Assembly (NCBI RefSeq): GCF_921293095.1
Contig: NC_060246.1
Span: forward strand, 15,518,001-15,582,000
Source of the DNA: Ischnura elegans
Lineage: Eukaryota > Arthropoda > Insecta > Odonata > Coenagrionidae
Direction: 5' to 3'
DNA: 64,000 bases
In this document: piece by piece, positions 3,115 through 46,734 of the stretch
Numbering within the stretch: position 1 is the stretch's first letter
How the letters are laid out: the number at the start of each line of letters is the position of its first letter
Translations under genes and position numbers: made by a program
Notes under the pieces: model-generated
The model's input: the letters and a program-made list of their open reading frames with translations, nothing else
Databases searched by the model: none
What the model was told of the DNA's origin: nothing

Positions 3115-5525
3115 AGACTACGTAGGTTTCCGCGGTGTTCAGGTTCCAATTTCTCCATGTTTTGCGGTGCAACCGTGTAGGTTTGTTGGTGATGACAACA
3201 GTTTCGCTGGCACTGCTGCCAGCGTCTTCAGGTCGAAGATGATGCCGGTCCACGATTTTCGTCCTCCTTATATAGGGGGTCAGTCCCGCCAGTTGTGGCT
3301 GCCGCTCTCTTATTGGTCCGCCTAATGAGCCTCCTCCAATGGGCATCCAGATGGTAGCCGTCGTCTCTGTTAAAATTGTCCGTCCGGGCTATCTCAATGG
3401 ATTCGCGGATGAGTCTGGGAAAATATCTGCCTTCTTTCACTATTATCTTGGCGTCGTCAAACTTAATGTCATGTCCCGGGGTCCAGGCGTGCTCCGATAT
3501 GGCAGACAGCTGGAATTGCCTGTTTTTCGTTGCCCTTCGGTGCTCTTGCATCCATATCTTGAGTGAACGGCAAGTCTCACCGATGTACGCTTTTCCACAC
3601 GAGCAAGGGACCTTGTAAACACCTTCATGAAGGTCGTGCTGTAGTCTGTCTTTGGCTGTGGGCAGTAAGTCACCAATTTTTGTTGTACAGTTAAACCTGG
3701 TGGTGACGCCGTGCTTTTTCAGGGCCCTGGCAATCCTTTCGGTGGTCCCTGCGACGTAGGGAATGAAGGCCCAAGCTCTTTCGTCTTCCGTTTTTTCACT
3801 TGAAAGTGGTTTTCTTTTAATGGTCCTTTTCAGGGCCGAATCCGGGTAGCCATTCTTTTTCAATGCTGCAGTTAGATGTTTCTCTTCTTCTGCCAGCGAC
3901 TCAGCATCCGAAACGCGGTTGGCCCGGTGAAAAAGTGTATTTATCAAGGATGATGCCTTTTGCACAGGATGGTGGTGCGAGGCATAGTCCAGATACCAGT
4001 CCGTATGCGTGGCTTTCCGATATACAGAGTGCCCGAGATGACCGTCACTCCTTTTCTTTACCAAGACGTCCAAAAAAAGGTAGCTGGCCGTCTTTCTCTA
4101 ACTCCATGGTGAATTGTATATCCTTGTGTTGGGAGTTCAGGTGCAGTAGGAATTGCTGTAGATTTTCCTTTCCGTGGGGCCAGATGATAAAGGTATCATC
4201 CACATATAGAATCCAAAGGGATGGTTTGTGCTTCGCAGAGGCCAGTGCCTTTCTCTCAAATTGCTCCATATACAGGTTCGCTATCACTGGTGACAAAGGC
4301 GAACCCATTGCTGCGCCTTTTATCTGCTCGTAGTAATTATTGTTCCACAGAAAATACGAATTCTCAAGACAGTATTGCACTAATGACGGGAAATCTTCAG
4401 GCACTCCAACTTTTGTGAGTTCTTTGATAATATCTACTGACTCTTTAACGGGGACACGGGTGAACAGCGAAACGACGTCAAAACTGACTAAGAGGTCGTT
4501 CTTAGTAATGGTGGTGCTGTTTAGGATTTCAATGAAATGGACGGAATTCTTCACAAGGGACTCAGTCTTTCCCACAAACTGTTGCAATGATTGAGAGAGA
4601 TACTTTGAGAAGAGGTAAGTGGGGGCACCGATTTGACTCACTATAGGTCGCAGTGGAACTCCTTCCTTGTGGATCTTCGGTAAACCATATAATCTTGGTG
4701 GTTTTGCGGCACGTGGTATGAGGTTCCGCTGCGTCTCTTGAGGGATGGATGACCTCTTGATGAGTTCCTTCACTTGTCGCTCTATCCTGGTGGTAGGGTT
4801 CGATTTCAGCTGCTGATATGCAGGATCGTCCAGAAGTTGGGAGATTTTTTCGTTGTAGTCCTTTCTGGTCATGAGAACGGTTGCGTTGCCTTTATCCGCT
4901 CTCAGTATGATGAGACTCTCATCGCTCTTGAGTTTTGACAGAGCTTCCCTTTCTGCAGCGGATAAGTTTTGCTTAGGTGGTCTAGCATTGCGGAGAATGT
5001 GAGAGACATCCTCTCTTATTTCAGCGGCGTCATCTTTTGGGAGCTTCCTAATGGCAGACTCAACCTCCGTGATGATCCTCTCCATAGGTAAATTCTTGGG
5101 AGCTATGGCAAAGTTATGTCCTTTAGATAGCACTGAGGTGGTAGCGTCGTCTAGTACTCTCTCGGTCAGGTTAACCACAGATCGATCCCGTAGATGTTGA
5201 TCTGAAGGGTGTTGCCTGTTGTGTAACTTGTCGAACTTCTTTATCTGCGTCTTCCGGGCAGTTATTTCCACGTTCTGAGATGTGAAATAAGTTATCTTCT
5301 CAATCTTGTCCCAATCGGTTGCATTCAAATAGCTGCTCAACTGTAAGTGAATCTTGTATAGTTCTTCGGAGCAGCGGTGGAGTGAGAGGCGAGTATGATG
5401 CACGCGTTCCCTAAGCAGGGCCTTGCTGGCTCGAAGCAAGATCCTTTTGGCAGAACTCGTTTTCAGATGATGACTTATTTCCACACATACAGGAATCGTG
5501 TCCGTGTCCCGGCAGATGCTACACC
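3115..5525 (-). mobile_element. Penelope-like retroelement (GIY-YIG type)
   Basis: A minus-strand Penelope-like element. About 4045-5525 encodes the reverse transcriptase, with VSFDVVSLF, a GAAMGSPLSP box and the catalytic LYVDD box. It is followed at 3228-4073 by a GIY-YIG endonuclease (CSCGKAYIGETCRS, then a conserved EHRRA stretch). The two domains lie in overlapping frames, so the copy is not intact. The terminal repeat at 3115-3290 is shared with the solo copy at 20302-20741, including the 41-base tail that ends in GACTACGTAG-like sequence. No matching terminal repeat is seen on the right side, so the element is probably 5'-truncated near 5525. Family knowledge: these elements use target-primed reverse transcription and often carry hammerhead ribozymes in their terminal repeats. 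Confidence 0.85.
3194..3231 (-). ncRNA. Hammerhead-ribozyme-like core in Penelope terminal repeat
   Basis: On the minus strand the order is CTGAAGA, then a hairpin with a GCTGGC/GCCAGC stem, then GAAAC, four bases and GTC. CTGANGA, a stem II and GAAA followed closely by a GTC cleavage triplet is the conserved hammerhead layout. A very short stem III is the form known from Penelope-like elements. Stem I pairing is weak by eye, so self-cleavage is an inference. Confidence 0.5.
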
Positions 5526-22100: not shown

Positions 22101-25100
22101 GACCATAAATCAAAAGCTTCAAAAGAAAATATCAAGTTACAGGAGAATAATCGTGTTTACCCTTCCCCCCTCTTACTCCCCCACTGACCTATTTCTGCCT
22201 ATCTGCTTCAAAGTTCCTCATTTCTGGAGGTCAACTGCTGCATGAGTCATCTACTACCCCAAAAGTTGTCTAACAATGACTTTTGGCAATTGATATTACA
22301 CCTTTATTGGATTGAAATACCAGTAATGTGCGCATAATTTTAATAGAATAAGACCAAACACGACGTATTTTTCACTTTATTTAAGCATTTTATGCAAGGA
22401 AATAAATGTCAAAATAAGACGGAGACATGGCATTCTGGCGAGACTCGATATGAGCAGCAGAGCTTCTCGGAAGTTGATACGATATTTTTTTCCGAAAACA
22501 TTTATCAAGTTATAATTTATGAGTCATGCTATAAATCTCTATTGTCGCAGACGAAGGGATATTTTCTCAGGATATTTGGTTTCTCCCGGCTAGCAATTTG
22601 AATTCATCTGCTTATCTCGTGAGAACTTCCAAAGATGGACTGAAAATAATTGAAGAAAATCCGGTGGAGAAGCGCGTGTATTTTGCAAAATGCCTCGGAT
22701 TGTCTACTAGCAATTGACAGTAGGAGTGGGGGTAAAGCGAGCTACTTGTTGAAAATAGGAAGTTGGATGAAGCCGAGTATCAGATGGGCGTGCCGCTGAA
22801 ATGGCGTTTGGTAGATATGAATGCATGCATACATCAGACAGAAATCCATCGTAGCAGTGTAAATGCCGAGACGGCATGCAATCATTTTTTACGAGGTGGT
22901 GTGTCCCCTTGGGATGTTTGAAAGAGATGTTAGTTGAATAACTATATGCCAAAATTGTTAAGCTATAAAAATAAATATTCCATTAATCTGCTAAATTCCT
23001 GTTTGAATCCTTTAAAGGAAATCATAATTATTCGCCAAAATCTTGGGTTTCCTGCTGCATAGGCAACCTAGTCAAACATTCCCGCATTCATCGTTTTTTT
23101 CGTCCATCCCCTTGAAAAACGATAGATTGAGGTTCCACTGTGTACATTTTTATTCATACATTCACCAAGTGGAATAGAAGAAGAAACGTACTTTCAATAG
23201 GCTTTGCGCAGTTCTAGTATTCGAATATTCGAGCAATGATTTAATGCACAAAAGTTAAGAAAAGACTTTGCTGTTTCTTAAAATAAAATATATTTGCGAC
23301 CGGTTTCGATACAGCGTATCATCATGCTGGCAGATGATACGCTGTATCGAAACCGGTCGCAAATATATTTTATTTTGTGAAACAGCAAAGTCTTTTCTTA
23401 ACCTTTGTGCATCATGAAGGAGTTTCACTATGTTATGCCAACCACCATCGCATTTACAATGATTTTATATTCAAATTTGATATTCGAGTGCGAGGAATCT
23501 GCTATTCAACCCATCTCTAGTAAAAAGTAATAAGATAAAGGAGTGTATGATATGAGGTAAGGAGGGGGAATAAAAATTTGAAGGTAGGAAGGAGTAGCTA
23601 TGTTATGAGAGGTGAGAGCAGTGGTGGATTAAGACAATCGCCCCAATCCCCTTCCAATGAAAAAATTGGAAAGATTGTGATCTTTCTTTCAACAGGCTTA
23701 GGGATGTTTAAAAATAATTGATGAATATCTAAAAGCCAATTGTCTACACAAATCAGACCTCAGACTCATTATTGCTGATAGGTTACAACCAATTAAAATT
23801 CACTAACTCATGATTAACTTTGTGGTATTCGATAATGTATAAGTTTTTTTTTGATATAACACAATTACCTATACCACTTCTTTTTTACAGAGTGCGACCT
23901 GGGTTTAAATGAACTACCCGGGTATGAATTATCATCATCTTCATGCGCAACTTATGATCTGAAATTATTACAGTAAAACCTCACCTTAACGAACTCCCGC
24001 TAAACGAAGAACTCCGTTCAACGAACAAATGCTATTGGTCCGGCCAATTGCCTATGTAAACACATTAGTGAAAAACCCCGATGAACGAACTCCTCTTTTA
24101 CGAAAACTCCCGATCAACGAAATGAAATTTCGGCGCGATCGAGTGAAATTCACCTCCCAATAACCAATTTTTCCGGTTAAATTTTTATTTTCATATGAAT
24201 AATTTAATATTCGTAGCGTTGGAGGGCAAATCAGAGACTTCCACTGAATAAGCCAATCAGAATCGTCATTATTAACCGTAACCATAGCCTTCCGTCGTGT
24301 GTTTCCGCTGACCCCAACTCGCGGCTCGCGGCGAATTGCGAAAAATGTTAATGCTGACTTTCGTAAATAACTCAATGTCCCAATATTTACACGCTCAAAG
24401 ATATTATATCTAGAGCTATGTACTTCGATCGCATTCTTTTGACGGTTGTTTAAGATACTTTACAGAATTACAACGCGTAAATTCCGAGAAGCATTTTTTT
24501 TTCACTCGCCGCCATCTTGGATAACTTCTTTAAAATTTAACTAAATTACGGAAGATACAATGCGCGCGCTAGAAGATGAAAGCCAAAATGTGCATCTCTT
24601 AATTATCTTTAATATATGACTCAGTAGTTACTCTTGTTTCATTCACATTGTTTATTTCAACATCATCTAAAAAATAGGAGAAACTTTTGCATTTGCCGCA
24701 ATCTTGGATAAAAAATATTCACACTTAAGACACGAAAGCCAACATTTCCCATTGATCTAGACGTTACTTGAATTGAGTGCTTTATACTAAAGGTCAGTCT
24801 CTGTCTGTCGGCGATTGTAGCGATGTCCTAACGTGATGTGAAGAGGATGTGAAGCGGTGTTGATTTTCTCCTGAGAAAAAGGTTTGCGACATGAAGAAGA
24901 CGACACAGTCTAAACATGCCATATTTAGACTGGGCCAATGGTGATGCCTCACCCCTGTGGTAGCAGCAAAAATCCATGAATGACAGCGGGATTAATTCAG
25001 CGGTGGTTGGCGGGAGTTGATGCACTCATGGGGAAAGTAGATTTCTTCCTCGATCGCTGCACGGGCCCAAACATAGGACTAACAATAAAAAAATGTGCGT

Positions 25101-31100: not shown

Positions 31101-34100
31101 AAGAAATAGGAAATTTATTCCGTTAGAATTAAAACCTTGCGGCTGAGCTTAAAGCCACCGAGTGCGTCCACCGGGTTGCGGATGGGTCGACCTTTAGATA
31201 TAGAGGTTAGCTGCGAGATAAGCGAGTTCTCTCATCAAATAAGCAGTCGTGGACAAAAAGCGGCGGTATTCTGAGGGGGTATTGGGCTACCCTTGGGTAA
31301 GGTAGACCATTTAAAAGATACCAAAACCTGTGAAGATACCGTGACTTGGCGACTGGGGGCCGCCAACAATTATGGAATATGATAAAATCAGGGCCCAGCT
31401 GTGAAGAAGCAAGAATTAAGAAAGGAGTGCGACAAGGCTGTACATTGTCACCCATAATTTTCAACGTTTACATTGAAAAAGCCATTAATGTAATCAAAGA
31501 AAAGGAATTGGGAGTGAATATCCATGGAGAAAAAATTAGCATGCTAAGATTTGCCGATGACATAGCCATTATAGCAGAAACAGAGAAGGATTTGAAAAAT
31601 ATTCTGGTTAATAAGGGTAGGGTAATGAGTAGATATCAACTGAAAATAAGCACGAAGAAAACCAAGATCTTAGTATGCAGCAGAAGAGAAGAAGTCAAGA
31701 CCAACATTAAAATAGGGAGGCAAAAACTGATAGAGGTGGACGAATTCTGTTATTTGGGAAGCAAGATAACTAGTGACGGGAGAAGCAAGAAAGAAATTAT
31801 CAGCAGAATAGCCCAGGCGAAGAGAGCATTCCACCAAAAGAGAGACCTGCTTACAGCGGGAAACTTAAATTTGGAAGTAAAGAAACAATTTATAAGAACC
31901 TACATATGGAGTATGCTCCTATACGGAAGTGAGGCATGGACAATGACCGCAGCGGAGAAAGCAAGGATAGAGGCCTTTGAAATGTGGTGCTACAGAAGAA
32001 TGATGAAAATCAAATGGATCGACCGAGTTAGTAACGAGGAAGTCCTAAGAAGGGTAGGAGAGAAGAGAAGCCTCATGAAAACCTTAATAAGAAGACGGAA
32101 CAACCTTATAGGCCACATCTTGAGAGATGATGGCCTGATGAAGACAATCGTCGAAGGACAAGTGGAAGGCAAGAATGGAAAAGGAAGACCTCGAACAAAA
32201 TATATGGAACAAGTAAAGAGAGATGTGAAAGAGAAGAAATACGTAGGTGTGAAAAGATTAGCTGATAGGAGAACTGAGTGGGGAGCTGCGTCAAACCAAT
32301 CCTAGGATTGTTGACCAGTGATGATGATGATGAGAATTAAAACAAAAATTTCAAGTAGGAGAACAGTGTTACTACCATAGTGGCCATGTTCTTGCCGCCG
32401 CCGTGAGGGAAAAAAAATCTCAGCGAACTCCTGTGATTCTTCTTTCGACAAGATGCAACACAGAACCGAGTAAACGTTCATCTACCCGATGCGGTCAGGC
32501 AAAAGACGTGGAGAAACCTTCAATTATTCAATCCTATAATGATTATATGGGAGGAATCGATACGTCTGATATGATGCTTTACGCCTATCTTGACGAGAGA
32601 CGTACAGTAAAATATTGGAAAAAGATGTGTTTCAATATTTTTGCGCGTATGGTACTGAATTCTTACATACTATACAAAGAAAACTTGACACCTGGAAAAA
32701 GGCCTTTGTCCAGGCAACAATTCACGATCGACATAATTGAGGAACTAGGCAGCGAATGGCTTCAAGAAAAGCAAAACGGAGATATGCAACCCGGATCATC
32801 AGAGACGTGTATCGAAAAACTTATAAACTTGTCAAATAAAAGAGAAAAGGACTGTTGAGTGTGCAGTGTAAGAGGGAAAAAGGGAAGAGTGCAAAGAAAA
32901 AGATCCAGAACTATGTGCGGAAACTGCAAAGAAGGCCTTATGGTGAATGCTTTCATAAGCATAAGTGCATCAGCTGATGAGACAGTGAGTGTAGAGTTTG
33001 ATAAAATATTTTATATCTCTGGAAAAAATTGATTGATAACTAAAAAATGCACCAAGGGTGAGAAAACTAAATACATAGTATCAACAAGTAACACTATGTC
33101 ACTACATTTGAACAATAATTTATAAATCATAATGTGAAATAAACTGAGGATTTTGGGTTTTTATATATAATTATTTTGTCATTATTTTTCTTTATGAAAA
33201 TTTAAGTAAATCCCCATAATGCATCTACGGTTCTAAACTATAAATATATATTTAGTATTGGGAAAAAATCTAGATGTATTAAATAAATATAAGTAACTGA
33301 AATAATTTAAAATCTGAAATCATACAAATTCGGGAAAATAGCCTTGGCAGTCTTCGCACATCCCATCCCAAATGGGCTGGCAGTATAAGGGTTAAATGAG
33401 CCAGATTTATATATATGTGATGAAAAGAACATTTTATTACATCAATGGAGTGTGTTATTAACTAATAAAGGACACATCACAATAAAGATTATGTAATGCA
33501 TGTGCATCAATTGATCTCTTGCATATCTTTTAGGGGGTATTGTTCCCAATATTCATCAAGCTGACGTCATTTCGAAAATATATGGAAATTAAATCAATTT
33601 GATCCATTTTCCCTAATTCTGATAATTTTTAGGCTGATAAAAGTTAGATGCATATGCTACCCCACCGACAAAATTAAAAACATGGTTACAGTAGTCTTAT
33701 TAATGGTTTGTATGCTTTTTCTTTTATAGTTTCCACTTTCTCGCCCTGCTGGAGATCTTATGTTTGAAAGAACAAAACGTCTTCAGGTGGAATCTAAAGA
33801 GAGGAAGCTTCTAAAATCAGAAGAGTCTTCAAAGAGAAAAAACGAAGCATATCTTGCTTCTCCAGGTACATAATTTTTAATAGGGTAATTGTGTGCCCTT
33901 TGATGGTTGATTCCAATAGTTTAGTGCCATTTCTGCTGTCTGTAGGGATGAGTGCTGTTACTATCATCTTGATAGTCAACCAGATGTGTCAGAGATAGTG
34001 TTCAGTTGCTGATTTGAGTTCCATAAAAGAAACACTAAGAAAATAATTCCCACAACAATCTACAGGCCAAAAGGAGTACATAAGGCCTGTCAATGGGGAT

Positions 34101-46493: not shown

Positions 46494-46506
46494 TAGACAG
46501 TATTGT

Positions 46507-46721
46507 TTAAGTAAATGAAAGATCGTAGCACTTTTCCACAAGAATTTTTAATGCGTACAACGCGTTTCGGCTCGCTGAGCCATCATCTGGTGTACCAGAT
46601 GATGGCTCAGTGAGCCGAAACGCGTTGTACGCATTAAAAATTCTTGTGGAAAAGTGCTACGATCTTTCATTTACTTAAATATGTCTAACTTCCACCAATT
46701 GAAGCCTGAATCTGTTGAACT
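46507..46721. mobile_element. Palindromic mini-Penelope element, 215 bases
   Basis: An almost perfect palindrome (46507-46679, one mismatch seen, two-base centre) is followed by a 42-base unique tail (46680-46721). The 13 bases TAGACAGTATTGT flank both ends (46494-46506 and 46722-46734). Each arm has GATGATGGCTCA, TGAGCC and GAAACGCGTTGTAC blocks. The long variable-length duplication indicates retrotransposition by a target-primed mechanism, as for Penelope-like elements. Confidence 0.8.
46595..46629 (+). ncRNA. Hammerhead-like motif
   Basis: CAGATGA, a GGCTCA/TGAGCC hairpin, GAAAC, a few bases and GTA. GTA fits the NUH cleavage rule. The second base is A where the consensus has T. Confidence 0.3.
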
Positions 46722-46734
46722 TAGACAGTATTGT

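Follow-up and report, generated by a model that had tools for sequence, protein, structure and literature searches.

We find that a 215-bp palindromic element in the genome of Ischnura elegans is very probably the trace of a single integration by a Penelope-like element (PLE), in which the 3' ends of both target strands primed on PLE RNA at two different sites. Genomic copies of the element have two fixed start sites, one per end, arms whose lengths vary independently, and arm variants that are concordant within a copy, and they are associated with target duplications, empty sites and a partner reading frame. The element lies within a 64,000-nucleotide stretch of DNA (C1:15518001-15582000), hereafter the window, and searches covered a genome of 1.72 Gb in 110 contigs (C numbers denote contigs and L numbers individual copies).

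Structure and genomic distribution of the palindromes

The element comprises a palindrome of 173 nt (46507-46679) and a 42-nt tail, 215 bases in total, and its inverted arms align over 86 nt each (46506-46591 and 46594-46679) with 99% complementarity and a gap of 2 nt (Table 1). The initial annotation had described a palindrome of 173 bases with one mismatch, a 42-base tail and a 13-base target duplication, and proved exact to the base in each respect. The mismatch itself recurs, a T-to-C substitution at RNA position -69 within a stem-loop being carried by 5 of 52 left arms and by 1 of 67 right arms (the copies cited include L018, L027, L030 and L074). Candidate miRNA genes at 23272-23384 and 46559-46625 were rejected, as the Rfam matches fall below gathering scores and are due to the hairpin shape of the palindromes.

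Table 1 Features of the two palindromic insertions and of related sequences in the window (coordinates are positions within the window)
Feature	Coordinates	Strand	Remarks
Left target site duplication (TSD), TAGACAGTATTGT	46494-46506	.	Its final T fits the arm's first base as well
Left inverted arm, antisense copy of PLE 5' leader	46507-46590	-	Start is the inner site (first-ATG boundary)
Centre, junction of both arm copies	46590-46593	.	Varies among most genomic copies
Right arm, sense copy of PLE 5' leader	46591-46679	+	RNA positions -89 to -1 ahead of the tail
Tail	46680-46721	+	ATG (46681-46683) and opening codons (MSNFHQLKPESVE) of the PLE frame
Right TSD, TAGACAGTATTGT	46722-46734	.	
Sole arm mismatch	46574 (g) vs partner 46611 (t)		
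Hammerhead-like stem GGCTC-AGT-GAGCC, then GAAAC	46604-46621	+	5-bp stem
Companion insertion, second family	23243-23456	+	Same layout; tail opens with the ATG of a putative frame (MKEFHY...)
Degraded PLE of another family	3228-5484	-	Reverse transcriptase (RT) frame 4045-5484; GIY-YIG-type frame 3228-4073
Paralogous empty site of family-2 insertion L041	31715-32026	-	98.4% identical, single target copy

A similarity search with the element yielded 943 candidates, of which 40 were scored, namely the element itself and 39 others at 91-97% identity. All 40 also match in the opposite direction, and so are palindromic, and the genome contains a 26-mer from the tail core 1008 times in exact form (456+552), not always as part of a palindrome, against no occurrence of the reversed control; a chance origin, already argued against in the initial annotation, is accordingly rejected. 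When the 30 best copies are aligned, nearly all possess their own target duplication, the centre mostly differs between copies, and variants private to one copy are present on both of its arms. Because this first set had been selected by similarity, we additionally drew a positional sample, consisting of 83 of the first 86 places in the tail list on C1 and C2 (L001, L011 and L012 included; C1:157955115, C1:160942876 and C2:6247089 left out), within which the places L099/L100, L132/L133, L134/L135 and L061/L126 are duplicated. An assembly artefact is very unlikely, because there are dozens of dispersed copies with different flanks.

The companion insertion (Table 1) is equally real, bearing out the view that a single layout is common to two families that differ in sequence. 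It has 80-nt arms (96%) and a target duplication best read as 12 nt with one mismatch, and a similarity search with it yielded 991 candidates, of which 40 were scored. The two families look distantly related: the tails, each starting at an ATG, read MSNFHQLKPESVEL and, in most copies, MKEFHHVTPTTIAF, a likeness judged by eye. The family-2 tail pattern has 22 exact copies only, because the window copy carries a letter that most copies lack, and the set analysed for this family combines 30 copies chosen by similarity with 20 of the 22 exact-tail copies (the other two being already among the 30). Left arms in the 30 best copies start 1-5 nt before the ATG, at which the family-2 reference sequence ends.

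A Penelope-like partner

At the head of an 849-residue open frame (L161) we find, in order, a TATA box, 30 nt, GTCTTG, a 93-nt arm and ATG TCT AAC..., that is, the tail; of the ATGs that follow a stop in this frame it is the earliest, and in L068 the same PLE frame is read on past the tail. It follows from the order of leader and frame in this partner that the arm is the 5' leader of a PLE mRNA, with the tail representing the start of the 849-residue frame, and that the inner start corresponds to the first ATG and the outer start lies ~42 nt inside the frame. A tie to PLEs had been proposed for these palindromes from the outset, and is supported here. Within the same 849-residue frame (on C2), the C-terminal, GIY-YIG-type portion of L061 is matched at 98% identity, and a 120-residue piece from the middle of the frame is 38% identical to the RT protein of the window, which in turn matches RVT_1 in Pfam (1.3e-15). 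Since the Pfam match to GIY-YIG is weak (E 0.017, below the cut-off), use of that name rests on the letters GIY..YIG together with 28% identity to the second frame of the degraded PLE in the window.

Related PLE frames, ~2.77 kb apart, occur in arrays (C9:35533412-35539201, C8:5718823-5727203 and C9:114213112-114218929), with a regular tandem spacing of 2772 bp on C9 and head-to-head pairs on C8. On C2, the 849-residue frame is situated on the inner-primed side, with a shorter copy opposite.

The right arm additionally contains a short stem followed by GAAAC, which is kept with altered but pairing letters in families 1 and 2 and in L163 and L165, and is weak in L162. This putative motif, one core letter of which departs from the hammerhead core, may be akin to a hammerhead; Rfam hammerhead families gave no match on the palindromes, nor on a short stretch.

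Assignment of start sites to the two ends

Among the insertions seen, each end keeps strictly to one of the two start sites. The arm end has 458 exact copies in the genome, and arm end followed by tail is found at 232 places (the two patterns being slightly different). Among the first 100 of the 458 arm-end places there are 37 adjacent opposite-strand pairs within 6 kb, the other 26 places being unpaired at exact match. All 37 close pairs are oriented outward, and 36 have exactly one tail by the exact pattern. The lone two-tailed pair is the inner pair of a locus (C2:68123840-68128454) with a single tail on its outer ends; when outer ends are considered throughout, there is one tail per insertion in 37/37 paired insertions, as judged by exact patterns, which miss tails with a changed letter in copies not fetched. 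Distances within pairs range from 44 to 4854 bp, and 21 of the 37 belong to a leader-only class of 184 bp or less.

In the positional sample, an inverted left arm that starts at the boundary between arm and tail was identified by script in 53 of 83 copies, with starts at coordinates -7 to +11 but mostly between -1 and +4, and inner-site left arms were added by eye for L061, L066 and L068. For 14 copies the fetched stretch ended too soon for a left arm to be scored (L086, L087, L088, L090, L092, L101, L108, L109, L121, L126, L128, L131, L136, L138). A further 13 show no inner-primed left arm within the fetched stretch (L070, L079, L082, L085, L091, L094, L097, L103, L115, L118, L122, L129, L135), among them L085, a clear sense-only copy that starts at GTCTTG. 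Two-ended priming is therefore not universal, or its trace is sometimes lost.

Arm lengths, centres and self-priming models

The arms are cut back independently of one another, and one is at times far longer than the other. Across 50 copies, the left arm is longer by more than 5 nt in 23 and the right arm in 10, while 17 have arms within 5 nt of each other; extreme examples (left/right, in nt) are L084 (83/17), L110 (86/43) and L078 (28/92), and in L093 a full left arm is joined to part of the tail on the right. A general tendency towards longer left arms (23 vs 10, p=0.035) was considered and dropped as a bias, left arms shorter than ~10 nt never being scored as two-ended.

These lengths bear on two explanations in which a single strand would prime on itself. 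In a sense snap-back, cDNA primed at the tail would reach the 5' end of the RNA, fold back and copy itself into the left arm, and this would account both for the variants that the arms of a copy have in common and for centres that resemble fold-back points. However, a self-copied arm cannot outrun its template, yet left arms exceed right arms by more than 5 nt in the 23 copies just mentioned (e.g. L084, L110 and L093), which excludes a simple snap-back; the ending of left arms at the first ATG is likewise unexplained, and we consider the model very unlikely. Self-priming of an antisense transcript, to which inverted PLE insertions in Adineta vaga have been attributed (Arkhipova et al. 2013, PMC3846280), would also yield head-to-head arms, and the available text of that study notes promoter motifs in both directions. 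Nevertheless, the right arm is the longer in 10 of 50 copies, and the model predicts a tail in both arms or in neither, whereas paired insertions have one. It is because the tail is present at one end only that antisense self-priming fails, and its probability here is very low indeed.

Of 50 centres resolved by script, 23 are insert-free and 27 contain 1-41 extra bases. Mean microhomology at the insert-free centres is modestly raised (1.43, vs 0.74 by permutation), with three of the four strongest cases having one common junction, and centre joining would on this evidence resemble microhomology-mediated end joining.

The supposition that the palindrome is a fixed design finds no support when the copies are compared, as arm lengths and centre differ between them, and its form is not passed on unchanged. 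Because of this same variation, it appears to be rebuilt at insertion. The high copy number, the common length class and the target duplications would all be accounted for by a non-autonomous palindrome, foldback or MITE-like, that is fixed in form and moves whole. Two sets of copies could be read in its favour, and speak against rebuilding at every insertion: L139 and L140 have an identical six-base centre insert with different target duplications (by chance reuse or from a shared template), and L107, L111 and L124, again with different target duplications, are joined at one self-complementary AATT point. The insert common to L139 and L140 could represent a ready-made palindrome that was copied once. 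Set against a fixed element are the variation of centre and arm lengths from copy to copy, the independent truncation of the arms, the tail at one end only, and the better match of arms within copies (94.6% identity in the positional sample) than between copies (91.1%), and we regard it as scarcely credible.

If the palindrome is rebuilt at insertion, then the fidelity of its arms would be a product of insertion. The initial annotation had taken that fidelity as a sign of youth. The element does belong to a young group, in which the 29 next-best copies are 93-97% identical to it (the best of the 40 scored).

Concordance of variants between arms

Arms of the same copy share variants well beyond the permuted expectation. 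A permutation test on 50 pairs of the positional sample (L100, L133 and L065 removed) gave 58 shared arm variants, compared with a permuted mean of 21 and maximum of 35 (1000 permutations), or 0.026 per overlapping base compared with 0.011 (maximum 0.018). Agreement at single sites, among pairs with letters on both arms, is 30/34 at -17, 36/40 at -12 and 38/39 at -6. Subfamily structure accounts for part of the concordance in this sample, and for that reason the 30 young copies provide a cleaner test. In these, site -17 agrees in 28 of the 29 copies with letters on both arms (Fisher p=3.5e-7), and one further copy has the same deletion at this site on both arms; when site -17 is set aside, 6 shared variants remain where 0.21 are expected (maximum 2 in 2000 permutations). 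Moreover, five young copies carry on both arms a variant that is present in no other of the 30. L015, the lone young copy whose arms disagree at site -17, may reflect mutation or two different templates.

Family 2 behaves in the same way as family 1, with 23 shared arm variants in 46 pairs from 50 copies, as opposed to 3.2 by permutation (maximum 10). At its site -27, agreement is 37/40 among pairs that have a letter on each arm, a count that leaves out one gapped pair and five without a letter on one side. The left match lies away from the boundary in 4 of the 46 pairs (L142 and L149, both cut by the fetched edge, L157 and L159).

Concordant variants would also result from ongoing gene conversion between the arms after insertion. 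However, unshared arm differences are more numerous in the positional sample (122/2252 sites) than in the 30 most similar copies (29/2546), from which we conclude that conversion is not keeping the arms alike, and it leaves independent truncation unexplained; we accordingly view conversion as highly implausible.

A different question is posed by the possibility that a dimeric enzyme used two RNA molecules, one for each primer, a variant nested within our preferred explanation of priming by both target ends. Such an arrangement would explain overlapping arms with no need for two enzymes to occupy a single RNA, dimerisation of the PLE protein is predicted (PMC11167929, in the text available), and the disagreement of the L015 arms at site -17 would follow naturally. 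If two RNAs were drawn at random, however, they would give neither agreement at site -17 in 28/29 young copies, where both letters are common, nor five young copies with a private variant on both arms, whereas pairs of RNAs from a single locus remain compatible with both. Indeed, arm concordance fits one RNA, or two sister RNAs of one locus, equally well. We judge the two-RNA variant on the whole unlikely, while giving it appreciable weight.

Target duplications and empty sites

Insertion is confirmed by the combination of target duplications and paralogous empty sites. The target duplication lies above the 99% null in 45 of 51 copies, with a median of 12 nt, and of 73 joined sites compared with the sequences gathered in the analysis, 5 gave a match across the joint. 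The initial annotation had called for a clean empty site with a single copy of the target, and on paralogous sites exactly one target copy is present at L041, at L030 (four empty relatives), at L013 (one relative, weaker) and at L031, which is the family-2 copy of the window and has two paralogous empty relatives over 84-85 nt; the fifth joined site, L071, matches across the joint at 73%. A genome-wide search for an empty site of the copy at 46507, the flanks of which are single-copy, found none. Within the window, a frame at 31346-32305 appears RT-like by eye, and it is another genomic copy of this repeat that hosts L041.

A model of two-ended integration

From the copies we infer the order of steps, the use of one RNA by both primers, how the ends are joined and where full copies come from. 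A PLE protein with RT and a GIY-YIG-type endonuclease would cut both target strands ~12 nt apart, and both freed 3' ends would prime on PLE RNA, either the same molecule or sister molecules. The primer at the outer site, ~42 nt inside the frame, would leave the tail, while the other would begin at the inner site, the first ATG. Both cDNAs would then traverse the 5' leader, either as far as the 5' end of the RNA, which lies 30 nt beyond the TATA box, or only part of the way. Their ends would be joined head to head, in many cases at short microhomologies or with the insertion of a few bases. With both priming sites located where the frame begins, a single mRNA would give only a 5'-leader palindrome of ~215 bp, and a frame-bearing copy would need a transcript that runs through a second unit.

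We tentatively extend this model, with slightly less than even confidence, to a two-primer PLE integration distinct from ordinary target-primed reverse transcription. A dimer would hold one RNA across both active sites, ~42 nt apart, such that the two target ends move along a single molecule in convoy as they copy it, and exactly one tail is left per insertion of this kind. On this view the sole source of full copies would be transcripts that cross a second first-ATG region, single-unit mRNAs yielding the abundant 5'-leader palindromes as a by-product.

Leader palindromes provide a natural record of insertion by PLEs, which are poorly understood, and hundreds of such short insertions in one genome register the start sites, the extents of copying, the joint, the target duplication and the empty site. 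They count against both self-priming models, account at once for the odd tail and for the inverted ends, suggest a reason why PLEs stay in tandem arrays, and make copying from one RNA or from two directly testable.

Comparison with known systems

MITEs and foldback elements have terminal inverted repeats at both extreme ends and are inherited as a unit, whereas the elements described here have a one-end tail of ~42 nt and a variable centre. In LINE-1 twin priming, an inversion results when the second target end serves as a primer at an internal position of the element RNA, an occasional event in which the two parts scarcely overlap. By contrast, both ends here copy the same stretch from fixed sites, and the arms overlap by up to 93 nt. 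Retrozymes are linked to PLE machinery, and their units are arranged in direct tandem with a hammerhead. In animals they are small non-autonomous elements with hammerhead-type motifs, according to the available text of PMC7229834. Units in the present case are inverted and have no Rfam hammerhead match.

Several features of endonuclease-bearing PLEs are present. RT and GIY-YIG endonuclease are found in one frame in the 849-aa partner on C2 (the 215-bp copy itself has no complete coding frame), a tail extends one end (37/37, exact patterns), target-site duplications are short (45/51, median 12 nt, with empty sites), and tandem or inverted copies occur among related frames. PLEs of this group also have a hammerhead ribozyme motif in the pLTR, for which the stem followed by GAAAC is a candidate that no Rfam hammerhead family matched.

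The likeness to A. vaga PLEs includes inverted pLTRs, an optional tail at one end, palindromic inverted junctions and short target duplications, as far as described in the available text of PMC3846280; the high-copy leader-only class and the independent arm lengths seen here differ from that system, and point instead to two-ended priming. Another close counterpart is PAc, a Penelope/Poseidon-type PLE of Anolis carolinensis, which has an RT and GIY-YIG protein and for which cutting and extension of both target strands were reported in vitro, with RT initiating internally at a pair of adjacent sites close to where the frame begins and the tail between them (Frangieh et al. 2024, PMC11167929, in the text available). 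In that in vitro study the start site showed no difference between strands, and the second-strand and repair steps were left unvalidated, according to the same text, whereas genomic copies here split the start sites between the ends, the inner site is the first ATG, and a head-to-head joint product is observed. A search of titles and the opening parts of abstracts in the open literature, for earlier short palindromic PLE insertions or two-ended priming, returned PMC11167929 and PMC3846280, and we make no claim that other reports are absent. To the in vitro findings of PMC11167929 the genomic copies add the allocation of one start site to each end, the concordance of the arms and the origin of the short palindromes.
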